Shown piece by piece: positions 55,598-63,913 of a stretch of 64,000 bases of DNA. Both the position numbers and the translations under genes were made by a program. Every line of letters starts with the position of its first letter. Within the stretch, counting starts at the first letter, position 1. The notes beneath the pieces were generated by a model. It saw only the letters and a program-made list of their open reading frames with translations, searched no databases and had not been told where the DNA came from. Source of the DNA: Metabacillus flavus (GTDB lineage: Bacteria > Bacillota > Bacilli > Bacillales > Bacillaceae); assembly GCF_018283675.1 (NCBI RefSeq), contig NZ_JAGVRK010000001.1, positions 1,984,001 through 2,048,000 of the forward strand. The letters are read 5' to 3'.

Positions 55598-56614
55598 CTA
55601 ACCAAGGATTTGATAATACAATTTTTTCGCTTCCTGTATACTGTTTGTCCCATGTATGAAGACACGGCCATCCTGGAAAATGACAAACCTGTGCTTAGGA
55701 AGCTTGCAGGATAATAGAAACGGATTGCGTTCAATCTTTCCATAAACACTCAGCCGCTTTTCAAGCTCATCGAAGTTATGGTAAATGGCTTCTTGCGGAC
55801 GGATCTGAACCGTATCCCTTCCGCAAAGCACTTCTGATTTCGTCTGATTTTCAAATTTTAAATGCGGGTATGCAGGATTGGAACCGCAGGTCGGGCAATT
55901 CTCTTTCTTTACTTTATCAAACTTAATGGAAAAATGCTGATTGTTCCATAAATCAAAGCTGATAAACGTCTCTCTCAGGTGATCCATATCCTCTACCAGG
56001 ATCTTCATGGCTTCAGCTGTCTGATAGGCTGCCGTGATTTGCACTGCAGGGCTGATAATCCCGGCTGTGTCACACGTCGCTCCCGAAGGAGGCATCCGTT
56101 CTAACAAACACTTAAGACACGGGGTCTTTCCGGGAAGAATGGTGCAGGTCACGCCATAGCTCCCTACACAGGAACCATAAATCCATGGAATGCGGAACTT
56201 GTGGGATAAATCGTTTAACACGAAACGGATATCAAAGTTATCTGCCGCATCAATGATCAAATCAATATCATGAAGGAGCGGTTCCAAATTTCCGGGTGCA
56301 GCGTCTTCTACGTATGCGTCCACCTCAACATCAGCGTTGATCCGGAACAGTCTGTTTTTTGCCGCAAGGGCTTTCGGCATTTTTTCTCTTGCATCCTTCT
56401 CTTCATACAGCTGCTGGCGCTGAAGATTGCTCCATTCCACATAATCGCGATCCATAAGGGTAAGTTTCCCGATTCCAGCCCTGGCAAGCATTTCAGCCGC
56501 TGCACTTCCAAGGGCACCGGTTCCGACAATCAGCACATGCTTCCTGCTGATTTGATCCTGACCCTGTTTTCCTATAGGTGCGAACAAATGCTGTCTCGAA
56601 TAGCGATCGTCCAT
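55598..56614 (-). CDS. moeB: MoeB/ThiF-family adenylyltransferase
   Basis: A 338-residue E1-like enzyme that adenylates the MoaD C-terminus. The nucleotide-binding motif is GTGALG at residues 31-36, with the usual DRDYVEWSNLQRQ strand-loop next. Zinc cysteines are CLKC and CPTC. A C-terminal extension of ~90 residues ends NSIQEAKKLYYQILG, resembling a reduced rhodanese-like tail. ThiF is the alternative, but the place beside moeA, moaD and moaE favours MoeB. It is the first gene of the leftward moeB-moeA-mobB-moaE-moaD-modA-modB group. Confidence 0.88.
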   Translation of the reverse strand: MDDRYSRQHLFAPIGKQGQDQISRKHVLIVGTGALGSAAAEMLARAGIGKLTLMDRDYVEWSNLQRQQLYEEKDAREKMPKALAAKNRLFRINADVEVDAYVEDAAPGNLEPLLHDIDLIIDAADNFDIRFVLNDLSHKFRIPWIYGSCVGSYGVTCTILPGKTPCLKCLLERMPPSGATCDTAGIISPAVQITAAYQTAEAMKILVEDMDHLRETFISFDLWNNQHFSIKFDKVKKENCPTCGSNPAYPHLKFENQTKSEVLCGRDTVQIRPQEAIYHNFDELEKRLSVYGKIERNPFLLSCKLPKHRFVIFQDGRVFIHGTNSIQEAKKLYYQILG

Positions 56615-56698: not shown

Positions 56699-57502
56699 TC
56701 ATGATGCTTTTCTGGATGAAATCGATGGATCCATTTTTTGCTTATAATAGGACGTAAAGTAAGCCATCCCTACAAATACAGCACCGCCTATTATATTCCC
56801 TATTAAAGTGGGAACAAAATTGCTAAAGTAATCCATCCAGGTAAAGTGCCCTGCGAATATAGCGGCCGGAATCAGGAACATATTCGCGACAACGTGCTGA
56901 AAGCCGATGGCGACAAATGCCATGATTGGAAACCAGATGCCTAAAATTTTTCCGCCCACGTCCTCTGCTCCAGTTGACAGCCAGATTGCAAGACACACAA
57001 GCCAATTGCAGCCTATTGCTGAAATAAGGGTCTGACCAAACGATTCATCAATTTTCGCACCTGCAATCGCTACCGTTTTATCCAAAAAAGGTCCAGTTTC
57101 GGTCAGACCGACAATGTGGCCGAAAAAGTAGGCAACGAATAAAGCGCCAAGAAAATTGGCGAGGATGATAAAGAGCCAATTCAAACCAAGATCTTTCAAT
57201 GAAACCTTTTTCGCGTAATACGCCATGGATACAGACATGATGTTCCCTGTTATTAATTCTCCTCCGGCAAGTACGATCAGCATGAGACCTACCGGGAAAA
57301 CAGCTCCACCCAATAAGGATGCAAAACTTCCCCACTCAGGCGGAAGATTTCCGATTACACGGATATCAAGCAGGAAACCAAATGAGATAAAAGCTCCCCC
57401 GAGAAATCCAAGAATCCATAATACCGGCATCGGCAGTTTGGTTTTACTTACCCCTGCTTCAATCGTTTTTTCTGCAATTTGCTGCGGCTTAAGATATGCC
57501 AT
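56699..57502 (-). CDS. Formate/nitrite transporter family channel
   Basis: A 267-residue channel of the FNT family (FocA/NirC/FdhC), like B. subtilis YrhG. Six helices are predicted and the protein should be a pentamer. Family motifs are GGAFISFGFLLDIRV in helix 1, GAVFPVGLMLIVLAGGELITGNIM in helices 2-3 (with the gating threonine), and IGFQHVVANMFLIP with the central histidine. The ATG at 57502 follows GGGAGAGAGAG. Placed among formate dehydrogenase genes, it most likely carries formate. Its leader has a terminator hairpin just before the ribosome site. Confidence 0.88.
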   Translation of the reverse strand: MAYLKPQQIAEKTIEAGVSKTKLPMPVLWILGFLGGAFISFGFLLDIRVIGNLPPEWGSFASLLGGAVFPVGLMLIVLAGGELITGNIMSVSMAYYAKKVSLKDLGLNWLFIILANFLGALFVAYFFGHIVGLTETGPFLDKTVAIAGAKIDESFGQTLISAIGCNWLVCLAIWLSTGAEDVGGKILGIWFPIMAFVAIGFQHVVANMFLIPAAIFAGHFTWMDYFSNFVPTLIGNIIGGAVFVGMAYFTSYYKQKMDPSISSRKAS

Positions 57503-57727: not shown

Positions 57728-58738
57728 TCAGCCGCCAATATGGGACATTTCTACTTTTGATCCGGCTGTTTTTCCATCCCTGCGTTCATCCGAATACCGG
57801 TCTTTCCGGTGATTCCAAATGGAGGAAAGGATATCGAGAAGCTCCTGGTCACTTTTTTCTGACCTCAGCTGATTTCGCAGATCAAACCCGTCCGCCGCAA
57901 AAAGACATGTATAGAGTTTCCCTTCTGCAGAAACTCTAGCTCTCGAACAGGCAGAGCAGAACGAATCTGTAACCGACGAAATCACACCGATTTCCTGTCC
58001 ATCGTCCAAGTACCGGAATCGAGTTGCGACTTCCCCTGTATAATTCGGTGAAAGCGGCTCAATCGGCATGACTTGTCCGATTGTGCTAAGGATTTCCTGT
58101 TTGGAGGAGACCTCGTCCATTCTCCAGCCGTTCGTATTTCCCACATCCATATATTCGATGAAACGGAGAATGTGCTGCTTTTCTTTAAAGTATCTTGCCA
58201 TAGGAATGATGTCCTGGTCGTTCTTTCCTTTTTGTACGACCATGTTAATTTTCACTTGAAGCCCGGCATCTGCTGCAGCCTCAATGCCTTCTAATACCCT
58301 CTTCACACTGCTTCTATTCCCGTTTAAGCTGCTGAATCTCTCTTCATCAAGTGAATCAAGGCTTACAGTCACCCGATGCAAACCAGCTTGCTTTAATGCT
58401 GATGCCTGCTTTTTCAAAAGGGATCCATTCGTGGTGATCGCTATGTCCCTTATTCCGTCAATGACTGCAAGACGTTCGATCAGCGCTGTAAGATTTTTTC
58501 TTAAAAGCGGTTCACCGCCTGTAATTCTGACTTTCTCCACTCCAAGGGAAGCGAAAAGCTTAGTTAATCGCTCCATTTCGTCAAAGGATAGGATATGTTC
58601 TGAAGATAAAAACGGATAATCCGGACCGAAAATTTCTTCAGGCATGCAATACCTGCACCGAAAATTGCAGCGGTCCGTTACAGAAAGGCGCAAATCCCGG
58701 AGCGGACGCTGAAGTGTATCTGTTACACTGTTTCTCAT
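57728..58738 (-). CDS. moaA: GTP 3',8-cyclase
   Basis: A 336-residue radical SAM enzyme that starts molybdopterin synthesis from GTP with MoaC (not in this window). The N-terminal cluster motif is C24-x3-C28-x2-C31 ([14 protein letters not shown]), the second cluster is CSACSRARV...CLF, and the protein ends in Gly-Gly (SHIGG) as required. The start [10 protein letters not shown] has GGAGAGGG 7 bp upstream and lies within 23 bp after the fdhD stop, with the frame open slightly further back. It is in one transcript with fdhD and the DUF2294 gene. Confidence 0.95.
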
Positions 58739-58760
58739 AGCTGTTCCCTCTCCTTCAAAG

Positions 58761-59561
58761 TCATTGTTCATCCAGCTTGATCCGTTCAGGGTGCGTATAT
58801 ATATTCATTGACTCATTTCGGATAAAGCCCGCTGCCGTGATGCCAAGCTCCTCCGCAAGCTTTAACGCAAGCTCAGTCGGTGCTGATTTGGAGAGAACAA
58901 TCTCACAGCCGATTTTTGCAACCTTCAGAAGAATTTCTGAAGAGATGCGGCCGCTGAATACAATGATCTTGTCTTCAATCGATATCTGGTTTTTCAGGCA
59001 ATAGCCATATATTTTATCAAGAGCATTATGACGCCCAATATCCATTCTGCTTAAAATAATTCCATTTACATCACATAATGCAGCATTATGCACCCCGCCT
59101 GTATTTTGGAATGTTTGAGCAGATTGCTGCATGTCTTCCATCAGCCTGAAACAATCTGCTGCGGTTACTCTCACCCGGACCCCGTTCATTTTTTTGGCGG
59201 TAAGTGCGTCGTTGACAAAGACAAATCCCTGTCTGCTCATACCGCAGCAGGAAGTAATATAGCGCTTACTTTGGAAATTTTGATAGTAGGGATTTACATG
59301 ATCCGTTTTCACATGAACATACCCTTCTTTTTCCTGCATCCAAATCTCTTTAATTTCATCATACTTTCGAATTACACCCTCAGATGCCAAAAATCCGGCC
59401 ACCATGTCTTCCACATATTCCGGGGTGCAGACCATTGTCACAAGCTCTTTCCCATTCACTTTCACCGTTACCGGAAATTCGGTGACAACCGTATCCTCCA
59501 GACACTCTGATCTGCCTTTTGATACCCGTATTATCTCTCTTTTTATCTGGATTGGCTCCAA
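58761..59561 (-). CDS. fdhD: Formate dehydrogenase accessory sulfurtransferase FdhD
   Basis: A 266-residue protein that carries sulfur from a cysteine desulfurase to the molybdenum cofactor of formate dehydrogenase. The sulfur-carrying loop is TSCCGMS. Other conserved blocks are [23 protein letters not shown] and [17 protein letters not shown]. Translation starts at TTG with GGAGGG 7 bp upstream. It serves the fdhF product encoded on the other strand. Confidence 0.93.
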
Positions 59562-59579: not shown

Positions 59580-59924
59580 TTACATAATATTCTTATCAAA
59601 AACAAATACAGATACAGCCATATTTTCTTCCACTTTTATGTCGGAGAATAAATGCACAAGCTTGGCTCCCATTAGTTCTTCCATACCCTCAGGAGGACTT
59701 ACTGAATAAACATCCTGAATCATTTTTGTTCTGGCCGCATGAATCATGTCCTTGCCTTCCTGTGATTTGGATAGAAACAGTTCGGTTGGCGTCAGATTGC
59801 CATAAAGGGTTGAAACCGCCATGTTTTCAACAAAAACAGTGTGAATCCGTTCTGGCCCCTTTCCGAATAATTCCTTTCGAAGCTTTCTGATCATATCGTT
59901 AAATTCATGAATGACATTTGGCAT
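59580..59924 (-). CDS. DUF2294 family protein (YrhF-like)
   Basis: A 114-residue protein of the DUF2294 family. Its core is FNDMIRKLRKELFGKGPERIHTVFVENMAVSTLYGNLTP; the rest has a repeated MAVSVFVFDKN-like strand. The start at 59924 follows GAGGAGAT; the frame is open upstream but without a ribosome site. B. subtilis yrhF lies in the same formate gene set. Function is unproven; related proteins have been linked to bicarbonate or formate handling. It is first in the leftward group with fdhD and moaA. Confidence 0.78.
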   Translation of the reverse strand: MPNVIHEFNDMIRKLRKELFGKGPERIHTVFVENMAVSTLYGNLTPTELFLSKSQEGKDMIHAARTKMIQDVYSVSPPEGMEELMGAKLVHLFSDIKVEENMAVSVFVFDKNIM

Positions 59925-60036: not shown

Positions 60037-60065
60037 TTGTATCTTTTAAAAAATGGGTCTATAAT
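60037..60065 (+). promoter_or_regulatory. Sigma-A promoter of fdhF
   Basis: TTGTAT and a perfect TATAAT are separated by 17 bp, giving a leader of about 185 nt before the fdhF ATG. Confidence 0.65.
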
Positions 60066-60071
60066 AGCCAT

Positions 60072-60225
60072 ATTGATGGAGATGCAGTAGTGCGCTGCTG
60101 TGTTTTTATCGCCGATGATAACGAAATGGCTTGGACTGGTTCTTTAGCAAGATCTGCTAATAAATTATTCCACCATGTATTGTGTGCTGTCCAATAATTG
60201 GACTCATGCAATCATGGTGGTTTTT
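60072..60225 (+). promoter_or_regulatory. Structured fdhF leader with terminator hairpin (candidate attenuator or riboswitch)
   Basis: After the promoter come three short stems: CAGTAG/CTGCTG, TTATC/GATAA and TTAGCA/TGCTAA. A bigger hairpin follows, CCACCATG (60170-60177) with CATGGTGG (60211-60218) enclosing GTCCAAT-A-ATTGGAC, then seven T (60219-60225). The fdhF ribosome site (AGAAAGGGG) comes about 15 bp later, so fdhF must be read through this terminator. I do not recognise it as a known riboswitch. Confidence 0.65.
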
Positions 60226-60255
60226 TTATGTCCAAATTCAGAAAGGGGCAAAAAA

Positions 60256-63198
60256 ATGAGTGATTCGAAGATTAGCGTGAAAATTAATGGAAGCGAATAC
60301 GAAGCCAATCAGGGGACTTCCATTCTTGAAATCTTAAACGAACAGCAGATTCAGCATCCGCAGATTTGCTATGTACCTGAAGTGGATCCGATCCAGACGT
60401 GTGATACATGCATCGTGGAAGTGGACGGCCAGCTTGTCCGTTCATGTTCAACCTGTGCGTCTGACGGTATGAATATTGTATTGGATTCAAGTGCAGCAAA
60501 GTCAGCACAAACAGAAGCTATGGACCGTATTCTTGAAAATCACTTGCTCTACTGCACCGTATGCGATAACAACAATGGAAATTGCAAGCTGCATAACACG
60601 GCTGATTTCATGGAAATCGAGCATCAAAAATATCCGTACACACCTAAAGTCGATCTGGATGATGTGGATATGTCCCATCCATTTTACCGCTACGATGCCA
60701 ACCAATGCATTGCCTGCGGACAGTGTGTGGAAGTGTGTCAAAATCTGCAGGTAAATGAGACTCTCTCTATTGACTGGGAGGCGGACCGTCCCCGCGTCAT
60801 TTGGGATAATGATACAACCATCAATGATTCATCCTGCGTCAGCTGCGGACAATGTGTAACAGTCTGTCCATGTAATGCTCTTATGGAAAAATCAATGCTT
60901 GGCGAAGCCGGTTTCATGACAGGACTTAAAACCGACATGCTTAGTCCGATGATTGATCTTGTAAAAGAGGTTGAGCCCGGATACAGCGGCATCTTCGCTA
61001 TTTCGGAAGCAGAAGCAGCGATGAGAGACACTCGCACAAAGAAAACGAAAACGGTCTGCACCTTCTGCGGAGTCGGCTGTGCATTTGAAGTTTGGACGAA
61101 GGACCGCAAAATTCTCAAGGTGCAGCCAGTTGATGATGCACCGGTTAATGCCATTTCCACTTGTGTCAAAGGGAAATTCGGATGGGATTTCGTTAACTCC
61201 GAAGAGCGCATTACGAAACCGCTTATCCGTAAAAACGGCGCTTTCGTTGAAGCAAGCTGGAAAGAAGCACTGGATCTAGTTGCAAGCAGACTTGGAACGA
61301 TTAAAGAAAAGCATGGGGAAGGCTCCGTCGGTCTGATTTCTTCTTCCAAAATTACGAATGAAGAAAACTACGTGATCCAGAAGCTTGCCCGTCAGGTTTT
61401 TGAAACGAACAACGTGGACAACTGCTCCCGCTACTGTCAATCCCCTGCCACAGACGGTTTATTCCGTACAGTAGGAATGGGAGGCGACGCAGGTACAATC
61501 AAGGATATTGCGAAAGCAGGCCTCGTCATCATAGTCGGCGCAAATCCGGCTGAGGGCCATCCGGTTCTGGCAACACGCGTTAAACGCGCCCACAAACTGC
61601 ATGGACAGAAGCTGATTGTCTCCGATCTCAGGAAAAACGAAATGGCCGAACGGTCCGATTTGTTTATCAGTCCAAAACAAGGAACCGATCAAGTCTGGAT
61701 TATGGCGGTTACGAAATACATGATGGATCAAGGCTGGCACGATCAGCGCTTTATTAATGAGAACGTGAACTTCTTTGACGAATACAATGAAGTTCTCGAA
61801 AAATATACACTTGAGTATGCTGAAAAGTGGACGGGCATTACAAAAGAACAAATGATTGAAATCGCTGAAATGATTCGCGATGCTGACGGCACATGTGTGC
61901 TCTGGGGAATGGGCGTTACTCAAAACACTGGAGGATCCCATACTTCCGCTGCCATTTCCAATCTATTGCTCGCTACAGGAAACTATCGCCGTCCCGGTGC
62001 CGGCGCTTACCCTCTTCGCGGACACAATAATGTTCAAGGCGCATGTGATATGGGTACCCTGCCAGGCTGGCTTCCTGGTTATCAGCATGTTACCGATGAT
62101 GCAGCCCGCGCTAAATTTGAAGAAGCGTACGGTGTAAAAATCTGCAGTACGCCTGGATTGAATAACATTGAGATGCTTGGCTCAATCGGTGCTGGAAAAA
62201 TGAAAGCTATGTACCTTGTCGGGGAAGACATGGCTTTAGTAGATGCCGATTCAAACCATGTTGATGAAATTCTTTCAAGCCTAGAATTTTTTGTTGTTCA
62301 GGACATCTTCCTTTCCAGAACGGCCCAATATGCAGATGTCGTTCTGCCGGCGGCTCCCTCTCTAGAGAAAGATGGAACGTTCACTAATACAGAACGCCGG
62401 GTTCAAAGATTGTATCAAGCCCTGCCAACACTTGGTGACTCCAAGCCGGATTGGTGGATTGTTCAGGAAATTGCCAACCGTTTAGGGGCAAATTGGAATT
62501 ACACGCATCCAAGCGATATTTTTGCTGAAATGGCTTCCCTGTCTCCATTGTTCGGTGATGCAAGCTATGAAGTGCTTGAAGGCTGGAACAGCTTCCTGTG
62601 GGGCAGCTTTGATGGGAAAAGTACGCCGCTTCTCTATACGGACGGCTTCAACTTCCCGGACAAAAAAGCGCGGTTCGCCCTTTCTGACTGGGTGACACCT
62701 GCTGAGTTCCCTGATGAGTATGACCTGAATATCAATAACGGGCGGATGCTCGAGCATTTCCATGAAGGAAATATGACGAACAAATCCAAAGGAATTCAAG
62801 CCAAGGTTCCCCAGGTATTCGTAGAGGTCTCCCCTGCCCTCGCTAAAGAACGCGGAGTTGAGGATGGTTCAGTAGTTCGTCTCGTTTCTCCATTCGGAGC
62901 CGTAAAACTGAGTGTCCTGATCACGGATCGTGTAAAAGGAAAAGAAATTTATCTTCCGATGAATTCAGTTGATAAAGAGACAGCTGTCAACTTCTTGACC
63001 GGCCCTATATATGATACGGAAACCAATACGCCTGCCTATAAACAGACGAAAGTACGGATGGAAGTGCTGGGAGAAAAACGCGAGATGCCATTGCCAAGCA
63101 CAAATCCAAGAAATAAAAAACGTTACCCTCAGAACGGCGTTGAAGCAGAACGCAAATGGGCTCGCCCAGGCTATGTTCATCTGACTACGGACAAATAA
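60256..63198 (+). CDS. fdhF: Formate dehydrogenase, large catalytic subunit (YrhE-like)
   Basis: A 980-residue molybdenum (bis-MGD) enzyme that oxidises formate to CO2. In order: a 2Fe-2S ferredoxin domain (residues ~10-85, CDTCIVEVDGQLVRSCSTC), a His/Cys cluster region (CTVCDNNNGNCKLH), two 4Fe-4S motifs (CIACGQCVEVCQN, CVSCGQCVTVCPC), the molybdopterin 4Fe-4S site (CTFCGVGC), and the catalytic domain. The active-site residue is Cys394 (SRYCQS) where E. coli FdhF has selenocysteine. The ATG at 60256 follows AGAAAGGGG; the frame runs upstream into the leader hairpin. Length equals B. subtilis YrhE as I recall it. Confidence 0.93.
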   Translation: MSDSKISVKINGSEYEANQGTSILEILNEQQIQHPQICYVPEVDPIQTCDTCIVEVDGQLVRSCSTCASDGMNIVLDSSAAKSAQTEAMDRILENHLLYCTVCDNNNGNCKLHNTADFMEIEHQKYPYTPKVDLDDVDMSHPFYRYDANQCIACGQCVEVCQNLQVNETLSIDWEADRPRVIWDNDTTINDSSCVSCGQCVTVCPCNALMEKSMLGEAGFMTGLKTDMLSPMIDLVKEVEPGYSGIFAISEAEAAMRDTRTKKTKTVCTFCGVGCAFEVWTKDRKILKVQPVDDAPVNAISTCVKGKFGWDFVNSEERITKPLIRKNGAFVEASWKEALDLVASRLGTIKEKHGEGSVGLISSSKITNEENYVIQKLARQVFETNNVDNCSRYCQSPATDGLFRTVGMGGDAGTIKDIAKAGLVIIVGANPAEGHPVLATRVKRAHKLHGQKLIVSDLRKNEMAERSDLFISPKQGTDQVWIMAVTKYMMDQGWHDQRFINENVNFFDEYNEVLEKYTLEYAEKWTGITKEQMIEIAEMIRDADGTCVLWGMGVTQNTGGSHTSAAISNLLLATGNYRRPGAGAYPLRGHNNVQGACDMGTLPGWLPGYQHVTDDAARAKFEEAYGVKICSTPGLNNIEMLGSIGAGKMKAMYLVGEDMALVDADSNHVDEILSSLEFFVVQDIFLSRTAQYADVVLPAAPSLEKDGTFTNTERRVQRLYQALPTLGDSKPDWWIVQEIANRLGANWNYTHPSDIFAEMASLSPLFGDASYEVLEGWNSFLWGSFDGKSTPLLYTDGFNFPDKKARFALSDWVTPAEFPDEYDLNINNGRMLEHFHEGNMTNKSKGIQAKVPQVFVEVSPALAKERGVEDGSVVRLVSPFGAVKLSVLITDRVKGKEIYLPMNSVDKETAVNFLTGPIYDTETNTPAYKQTKVRMEVLGEKREMPLPSTNPRNKKRYPQNGVEAERKWARPGYVHLTTDK

Positions 63199-63211: not shown

Positions 63212-63694
63212 TTGGCAGCTCCTATTACAGAAATCAGAAAACCTCAATTAAGCGAGGAAGAAGTTAAACAGCAAAAGCTTAATGATTTAAAGACCCTGCT
63301 GGCTGAAAATGAAACAGCTTTGGCAAAAATGATGGAAATTGCGAGCGAGCTGAACAGCATCGGCATTCTTGACGCAGCTGACCATATGCTTCTTGCAAAA
63401 GATGAAATTGCTAAAATAGCTCTTGGACAGGTTTCCCGCAAACCGGTTACCAACCTTCTCAATACCTTGCTCGGTGCAACCGGAGCATTGATGAAAGCAG
63501 ATCCCGGACAGACTTCCAAGCTATTAAACAGTGCTGTTGCCGGTATGGATGCAGGAAGCAAATACTTGAAATCTGAAAAAAAGGTAACCGTCATGGATTT
63601 ATTAAAAACGCTGAACGATCCTGATATTAATAGAGCAATCGGTTTCGGCCTCCATTTCCTCCGCGGAATGGGAAAAGATCTGAAAGAGGATTAA
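63212..63694 (+). CDS. DUF1641 family protein (YrhD-like)
   Basis: A 160-residue soluble helical protein. The DUF1641 core is in the C-terminal half (VMDLLKTLNDPDINRAIGFGLHFLRGMGKDL); the first ~90 residues are helical and charged. It starts at TTG with AAGGAGGAAA upstream, 13 bp after the fdhF stop, so the two genes are one operon. Such proteins accompany YrhE-type formate dehydrogenases and may act as a small partner subunit or electron-transfer adapter; this is inference. Confidence 0.85.
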   Translation: MAAPITEIRKPQLSEEEVKQQKLNDLKTLLAENETALAKMMEIASELNSIGILDAADHMLLAKDEIAKIALGQVSRKPVTNLLNTLLGATGALMKADPGQTSKLLNSAVAGMDAGSKYLKSEKKVTVMDLLKTLNDPDINRAIGFGLHFLRGMGKDLKED

Positions 63695-63700
63695 CCTGCT

Positions 63701-63739
63701 GACTGAAAAGACGCCGTGAGCTTCTTTTCAGTCTTTTTC
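63701..63739 (+). terminator. Terminator of the fdhF operon
   Basis: A perfect 10-bp stem (GACTGAAAAG/CTTTTCAGTC) with a 13-nt loop, followed by five T. Confidence 0.85.
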
Positions 63740-63761
63740 AATGGCGGCGTGAGAGTCCAGA

Positions 63762-63913
63762 GTTTGTTTGACAAATGATCGACTGCCCGGTTTGTCTGAG
63801 AATTTTGCCTGACAAGTGATGGACTGCCCGGATTGTCTGACAATTTTGTCTGACAAGTGATGGATTTCTCCGTTTGTCTGACGATTTTGTCTGACAAATG
63901 ACGGATTGCCCAA
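63762..63913. repeat. 41-bp tandem repeat, about 3.7 copies
   Basis: Three full units lie at 63791-63831, 63832-63872 and 63873-63913, preceded by a partial unit from about 63762. Each has TTTGTCTGAC-AATTTTGTCTGACAA followed by GTGATGGA and a CTGCCCGG-like end, with a few changes between copies. There are no spacers between units. The repeated TGTCTGACAA could form small stems. No gene runs through it. Confidence 0.8.

Follow-up and report, generated by a model that had tools for sequence, protein, structure and literature searches.

A two-hairpin RNA leader before formate-related genes of Bacilli and MpsC (DUF2294) as its candidate antiterminator

Introduction

Antiterminator proteins of the BglG/SacY-LicT type, which carry a CAT domain, act as homodimers that hold a pseudo-symmetric RAT hairpin overlapping a terminator, and the result is read-through. 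ANTAR antiterminator RNAs are made of two successive hairpins with conserved hexaloops, the second of which competes with the terminator, while in ON-switch riboswitches an aptamer helix overlapping the terminator is a common layout. The leader described here precedes a formate dehydrogenase gene (fdhF) in the 64-kb stretch of DNA that we analyzed as a whole (the window). It is like the BglG/SacY-LicT targets in that a dimer-held hairpin overlapping the terminator is proposed to give read-through, but the RAT consists of a single hairpin interrupted by internal loops, whereas here there are two hairpins with paired symmetric ends. It also has the two hairpins of the ANTAR RNAs, with an overlap between the second one and the terminator in 52 of 63 leaders (the two are flush in the other 11), but hexaloops are conserved in those RNAs, whereas here the loops vary and the conserved bases lie in the stems. 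Like the Moco RNA motif and further riboswitches of Rfam, the leader is associated with molybdoenzyme-related genes, but neither the window nor the 13 loci scanned has a match to an Rfam 15 family at gathering score. Our search of the open-access PMC literature found neither a formate riboswitch nor a named family for this leader.

The corresponding enzyme of Bacillus subtilis, YrhED, is also known as ForCE2 (PMC8808070). A study of Hfq-bound RNAs lists the 139-nt yrhE leader of this species as the most enriched entry of its Table 2 (ratio of 170) and a 234-nt RNA between yrzI and yrhG (ncr2184/ncr60; ratio of 22.2, Table 1) as a putative small RNA (sRNA) (PMC3574147). By gene position, these two are the B. 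subtilis counterparts of the leaders that we call M1 and M2, and in what that study describes they are unexplained Hfq-bound RNAs with no family, structure, or regulator.

Results and Discussion

The fdhF leader and its surroundings

The elements of the locus are as follows (positions within the window).

60037..60065, plus strand: promoter of the fdhF leader, TTGTAT-17-TATAAT, read from the sequence
60075..60110, plus strand: hairpin P1 of the M1 leader, symmetric UG-N9-YA arms at 60077-60089 and 60096-60108
60132..60172, plus strand: hairpin P2 of the M1 leader (UGGA...UCCA), conserved core, symmetric arms at 60137-60149 and 60155-60167
60170..60227, plus strand: intrinsic terminator, stem 60170-60220, U tract 60221-60227
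60256..63198, plus strand: fdhF, catalytic subunit of a ForC2/YrhE-type formate dehydrogenase (the controlled gene), from a domain scan
63212..63694, plus strand: DUF1641 partner subunit, ForE/YrhD type
59580..59924, minus strand: MpsC-family gene (DUF2294, PF10057), divergent from fdhF, candidate RNA-binding regulator, from alignment with a PF10057-scanned close homolog
58761..59561, minus strand: fdhD
57728..58771, minus strand: moaA
57529..57670, minus strand: second leader, M2, before focA
56699..57502, minus strand: focA, formate/nitrite transporter, likely ATG at 57502, past the M2 terminator
55598..56614, minus strand: moeB/ThiF-family gene of the divergent cluster

The promoter, folded leader, and intrinsic terminator that a first-pass annotation had proposed before fdhF were confirmed at 60037-60227. 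The promoter boxes, read from the letters, are TTGTAT (60037-60042) and TATAAT (60060-60065) with a 17-nt spacer, and a comparable TTGTAT or TTGAAT-17-TATAAT in similar placement precedes the leaders of a related genus (g2). The terminator has a clamp (CCACCATG, 60170-60177, with CATGGTGG, 60213-60220), an inner stem (GTCCAAT, 60189-60195, with ATTGGAC, 60197-60203), and seven T (60221-60227). A purine-rich ribosome site starts at 60240 and the ATG of fdhF is at 60256, an order of elements that bears out the claim that all transcripts from this promoter must read through the terminator. The "three small stems" of the same annotation turned out to be one long hairpin, P1 (9/9 interior pairs), and one conserved hairpin, P2 (7/9), the 3' strand of which enters the terminator and has 2 or 3 bases in common with it. 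The folding z-score of the leader is -4.95, and none of 200 shuffles was equally good. Fixed-rule scans of the window for promoters and terminators returned neither of these two, which their rules do not admit; hence, both rest on reading and conservation. A DNA-similarity search of the genome for other copies of the leader gave only the leader itself as significant, the other 20 places having E values of at least 0.18.

The second leader, M2, has its P1 at 57664-57634 (9/9 symmetric interior pairs), its P2 at 57614-57583, with a 3' arm ending in UU instead of YA, and a terminator at 57582-57534 followed by a T run (57533-57529). Its match to the M2 model has an E value of 4.7e-14 and its folding z-score is -7.78 (0/200 shuffles equally good). 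Elsewhere in the window, two repetitive-looking reading frames lie below the DUF1641 gene (63691-63913, minus strand).

Spread, covariation, and the terminator

A protein search in 80 genomes of the taxonomic family located the same element upstream of fdhF in two genera and a divergent version in a third. The covariance model built for M1 (R1) has matches in 67 of the 397 genomes of the order, distributed over 18 of 135 genera, and in 26 of 329 genomes of the class, including families outside the order. By pattern, 74 loci were found in named genomes of Bacillus, Gottfriedia, Priestia, Fictibacillus, Sporosarcina, Paenibacillus, Cytobacillus, Domibacillus, and others, 73 of them directly before fdhF and one cut by the end of the locus.

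Far from lacking conservation, related leaders covary strongly. In an alignment of 70 M1 leaders, which was fitted to the model and thus leans towards the structure, 94.4% of the pair cells are standard and 20 of 29 pairs changed on both sides, with a covariation score of 0.346 versus 0.153 for shuffled alignments and at most 0.089 in slid controls. All 15 pairs of P1 show changes on both sides, with 92.3% of cells paired, and P1 is absent or unalignable in some leaders; the two helices of P2 are paired in 96.7% and 96.3% of cells, one pair being G.U in 70/70. An automatic search found a terminator after the motif in 63 of the 70 aligned leaders, and its arms covary as well (CCACCATG/CATGGTGG, CCACTATG/CATAGTGG, and CCACCAAG/CTTGGTGG). 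The 5' arm of the terminator overlaps the 3' strand of P2 in 52 of these 63 leaders and is flush with it in 11, all of the B. subtilis group, so that strict mutual exclusion of P2 and terminator, which we had considered for the whole family, was abandoned: it does not explain the leaders of that group. When either structure was forced, the full terminator was better than P2 in 56 of the 63 leaders, by a mean of 2.8 kcal/mol over all 63, which makes termination the likely default.

A conserved leader with an intrinsic terminator thus lies between promoter and gene, and comparison as good as shows that the region before fdhF is a transcription attenuator belonging to a new, apparently unnamed, RNA leader family of Bacilli, in strong support of the attenuator layout first proposed. 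The view that it resembles no known riboswitch consensus also holds against Rfam 15, since no family reached the gathering score in the window or in the 13 loci scanned, the Moco RNA motif included. This motif was absent too from the matches ranked by E value, which for M1, M2, M3, and M4 contained nothing meaningful, only noise-like matches; a relaxed Rfam search of the fdhF leader gave one miRNA-like match (E value of 2.3).

Genes behind the leaders

Among the 60 M1 places fetched out of the 75 R1 places of the order, the next gene is fdhF in 50, MpsC in 7, UPF0126 in 2, and an Mrp-MobB-ModAB cluster in 1, and in one of the copies preceding MpsC this gene is followed by moaB-mobA and modAB (modA and modB were recognized by eye). 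Seven further M1 places within the taxonomic family of the window are all before fdhF. M2 was discovered through weak R1 matches before focA or moeB, and its own model (R2), for which covariation was computed too, has matches in 42 of the 397 genomes of the order. Leaving aside 4 places that were not retrieved and 3 (L204-L206) that had been dismissed as chance matches ahead of the count, its 46 places gave 39 leaders. These are followed by focA (14 leaders), an OFA-like transporter (13), moeB (7), or fdhF (2), and one each by a YdeP-type oxidoreductase, a chemoreceptor-like gene, and a contig end. The OFA-like transporters are named for their apparent likeness to the oxalate/formate antiporters of the MFS; the one scanned passes only the L-lactate transporter model, with strong scores below the cut-offs for the oxalate/formate antiporter models. 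The theme common to the controlled genes is formate together with the needs of formate dehydrogenase, which supports the formate link suggested at the outset.

Some of these neighborhoods have peculiarities of their own. The leader before the chemoreceptor-like gene (L203 of genome G210, 1001-1114, gene from 1285) is M2-like, with an E value of 0.0064 and one symmetric stem of 9 out of 9 pairs; judged by eye, the gene seems to code for a methyl-accepting chemotaxis receptor, possibly for formate taxis. UPF0126 (named "Glycine transporter" in Pfam) is a recurrent second target (L107, L109, L226, L227, and L371), and one of these leaders sits in a genome with no formate dehydrogenase match. In one genus, the leader drives MpsC (L108, L119-L122, and L134); a PsiE family gene comes next in L119, and frames farther down in L108 and L119 were recognized by eye as HutP, HutH, and HutU. 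A small conserved protein of 77 to 86 amino acids is located directly before modA in the molybdenum cofactor gene clusters of L102 and L118, and the one tested had no Pfam or NCBIfam match.

A symmetric stem in two copies

Comparison of the conserved columns shows that the same two-fold symmetric stem, 5'-UG-N9-YA-loop-UG-N9-YA-3', recurs in P1 and P2, with an interior more variable than its ends. The end pairs of P1 are G.U in 63/70 and U.G in 64/68 leaders and those of P2 are G.U in 70/70 and U.G in 51/70 plus C-G in 18/70, next to conserved U-A ends. Requiring at least 6 of the 9 interior pairs, the 70 M1 leaders contain 116 N9 stems, compared with 0 to 14 for other spacings and a mean of 0.96 (maximum of 4) in shuffles. 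By this rule two stems are present in 47 leaders, one in 22, and none in 1, i.e., 23 of the 70 do not have two full symmetric stems. The same applies to 21 of the 39 M2 leaders (48 N9 stems; two in 18, one in 12, and none in 9), for which the N13 spacing gives 28 stems as well. At a threshold of at least 8 of 9 interior pairs, the only such stems in the 64-kb window are the P1 stems of M1 and M2 (20 shuffles average 0.1).

The loops vary in length and sequence in P1 (4 to 9 nt in 59 of 70, longer in the rest) and are mostly of five bases in P2. A loop motif common to P1 and P2, NGNNC, was tried and dropped in favor of the symmetry of the stem ends, as it occurs in too few P1 loops (13 of the 59 of 4 to 9 nt versus 5.8 after shuffling; 4 of 2,000 shuffles reached 13). 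A symmetric stem that occurs twice and is freer inside than at its ends points to a homodimeric protein that would read those ends.

MpsC and its association with the leader

PF10057 is present in 289 of the 397 genomes of the order. The MpsC protein of the window aligns with a leader-linked subfamily, showing 64 to 84% identity to 25 other members and 23 to 27% to four unlinked MpsC proteins. A leader-linked MpsC that is its close homolog matches the PF10057 profile with 106 bits (cut-off of 23) and nothing else, with no CAT or PRD domain match, and was the one protein scanned for an ANTAR domain, with no match. An R-x-x-R-K motif in helix 1 is present in 26/26 leader-linked proteins and in 0/4 unlinked ones. 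The predicted model is of good quality (pLDDT of 91.2) and gave no clear RNA-binding relative in fold searches (best Foldseek E value of 0.029; best VIA Z of 8.2, with an rmsd of 3.0 over 88 aligned residues), nor did a sequence search of MpsC return a solved relative. No symmetric stem was found in the 10 kb surrounding the unlinked MpsC of the same genome.

The association across genomes is close. Within a comparison of 284 genomes, an MpsC with at least 57% identity is found in 45/45 genomes with a leader (R1 or R2) and in 1/239 others, and in this lone exception (G242) a divergent leader built on the same plan was read by eye upstream of fdhF; the other 238 genomes are the remainder of the 284 and mostly not named individually. 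G014 and G043, which also have a leader, are missing from the comparison and were taken as not drawn, the MpsC of the former being of the subfamily (76%). Conversely, among the formate dehydrogenase genomes of the taxonomic family, four have no R1 match (G051, G052, G054, and G056, which the R1 search took in; G050, G055, and G075 fell outside it) and two have no leader before fdhF (G001 and G002, where the upstream regions of fdhF were the only ones inspected); none of the MpsC proteins of these six exceeds 29% identity. Since MpsC and leader are often in one gene block, the co-occurrence partly reflects joint inheritance.

A third variant, M3, was first seen in two genomes with a more distant MpsC, and the prediction that leaders would also lie beside other distant MpsC proteins (type B, 38 to 47%) led to M3 hairpins being placed in 26 of the 31 loci fetched. 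Their loop is GCGANCC or similar, and they precede an OFA-like gene, YdeP, or MpsC; the pattern has 69 placed and 16 unplaced matches in these 31 loci versus 23 matches in 540 kb of other loci. A fourth variant, M4, was found in three type B loci (L371 by pattern and L377 and L378 by eye), and no leader was recognized in two of the 31 (L369 and L374). R-x-x-R-K is found in 20 of 22 MpsC proteins of the type B set, G242 included. A conserved cluster of OFA-like transporter, MpsC, YdeP-type oxidoreductase, and fdhD with M3 is common in L353-L383.

In Staphylococcus aureus, deletion of mpsC caused no growth phenotype and MpsC has no known role, according to what is described in PMC6689103. YrhF, which by its position beside yrhE would be the MpsC of B. 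subtilis, is listed among the targets of the sRNA RoxS with its function given as unknown (PMC8216469).

Antitermination by a protein or direct sensing by RNA

The first-pass annotation had left the choice between a riboswitch and a protein-controlled attenuator. The repeated symmetric stems and the co-occurrence of one MpsC subfamily favor the protein, and we put at about even the chance that the leader works by protein-dependent antitermination, with MpsC as an RNA-binding sensor acting on the two symmetric stems in response to formate. RNA polymerase would start at the promoter and make P1 and then P2, each a copy of the 13-bp two-fold symmetric stem, both ends of which, about one RNA helical turn apart, carry a U-A pair plus a G.U wobble (or the equivalent C-G). 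In an unoccupied leader, the 3' strand of P2 would be drawn into the terminator and transcription would stop. If a homodimeric protein, most likely the neighboring MpsC, occupied P1 and P2, the held P2 would prevent the base of the terminator from closing and fdhF would be transcribed. We infer from the comparative evidence that MpsC dimerizes and binds RNA, that binding means ON, and that formate is the signal.

The chief rival is a direct riboswitch, in which the P1-P2 RNA itself, on binding formate or a related small carboxylate, would keep P2 from the terminator, with the genes ON. The near-invariant core of P2, the central place of formate handling among the downstream genes, and the helix overlapping the terminator, as in ON switches, all fit such an RNA. 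However, the core bases differ among the four variants M1 to M4 while the symmetric stem ends are largely kept, a stem present in two copies with a variable interior resembles a protein site, and the close co-occurrence with MpsC would need another reason, so we regard a riboswitch as rather unlikely, if clearly worth keeping in mind. Still less probable is an attenuator bound by a protein other than MpsC, be it Hfq or another regulator. The ratios of 170 and 22.2 reported for the yrhE leader (top of Table 2) and the yrzI-yrhG RNA (Table 1) speak for Hfq, but the same study reports this protein on many unrelated leaders (PMC3574147, in what it describes), and the co-occurrence with one MpsC subfamily would be left unexplained.

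The signal

With antitermination by MpsC as the preferred reading, formate, or something that follows closely from it, is the most likely signal, formate being the simplest common denominator that we infer from the controlled genes. Against a simple formate switch counts the description of B. subtilis forCE1/2 as seemingly not expressed under anaerobiosis, fermentation, or formate induction (PMC8808070).

A sensor of molybdenum cofactor or molybdate, the other possibility raised in the first-pass annotation, is disfavored, and we rejected it as the main reading on the evidence of one genome, G365 (99% complete). This genome keeps the leader, before a UPF0126 gene, and the linked MpsC, but it has no FdhF match and its MoaA match is a partial one to a radical-SAM protein (26% identity), which argues against molybdenum cofactor sensing. 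Its MpsC could serve the UPF0126 protein instead. A BLAST match of the YdeP reference in G365 (57 residues, 30% identity, E value of 3.9e-5, in an endonuclease-like frame) was taken as chance because the FdhF search gave none. Some copies of the leader do precede MpsC-moaB-mobA-modAB, mrp-mobB-modAB, or moeB, but among the targets focA, the OFA-like transporter, and UPF0126 can do without molybdenum and no Rfam match was obtained at gathering score, which leaves a molybdenum sensor very improbable. Hardest to credit is an ordinary constitutive terminator or unrelated small RNA with no regulation, for although reports on B. subtilis and B. amyloliquefaciens list, in what they describe, short yrzI-yrhG RNAs as sRNA candidates, the upstream hairpins covary, hold a fixed place before formate genes, and include a P2 that competes with the terminator in 52 of 63 leaders.

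Implications

In its widest form, our proposal falls just short of an even chance: MpsC/DUF2294 proteins may be homodimeric antiterminators of a new family that sense metabolites and bind RNA, and their co-evolved subfamilies would each read their own version (M1/M2, M3, or M4) of a symmetric double-hairpin code, UG-N8/9-YA, and in this way govern the oxidation and transport of formate and the supply of molybdenum across Bacilli. If this is true, subfamilies of PF10057, a protein family that is very common and functionally uncharacterized, would acquire a function and the formate metabolism of Bacillus a control mechanism, and two Hfq-bound RNAs of B. subtilis would be explained. One-carbon biotechnology, too, would benefit from a genetically encoded formate switch.
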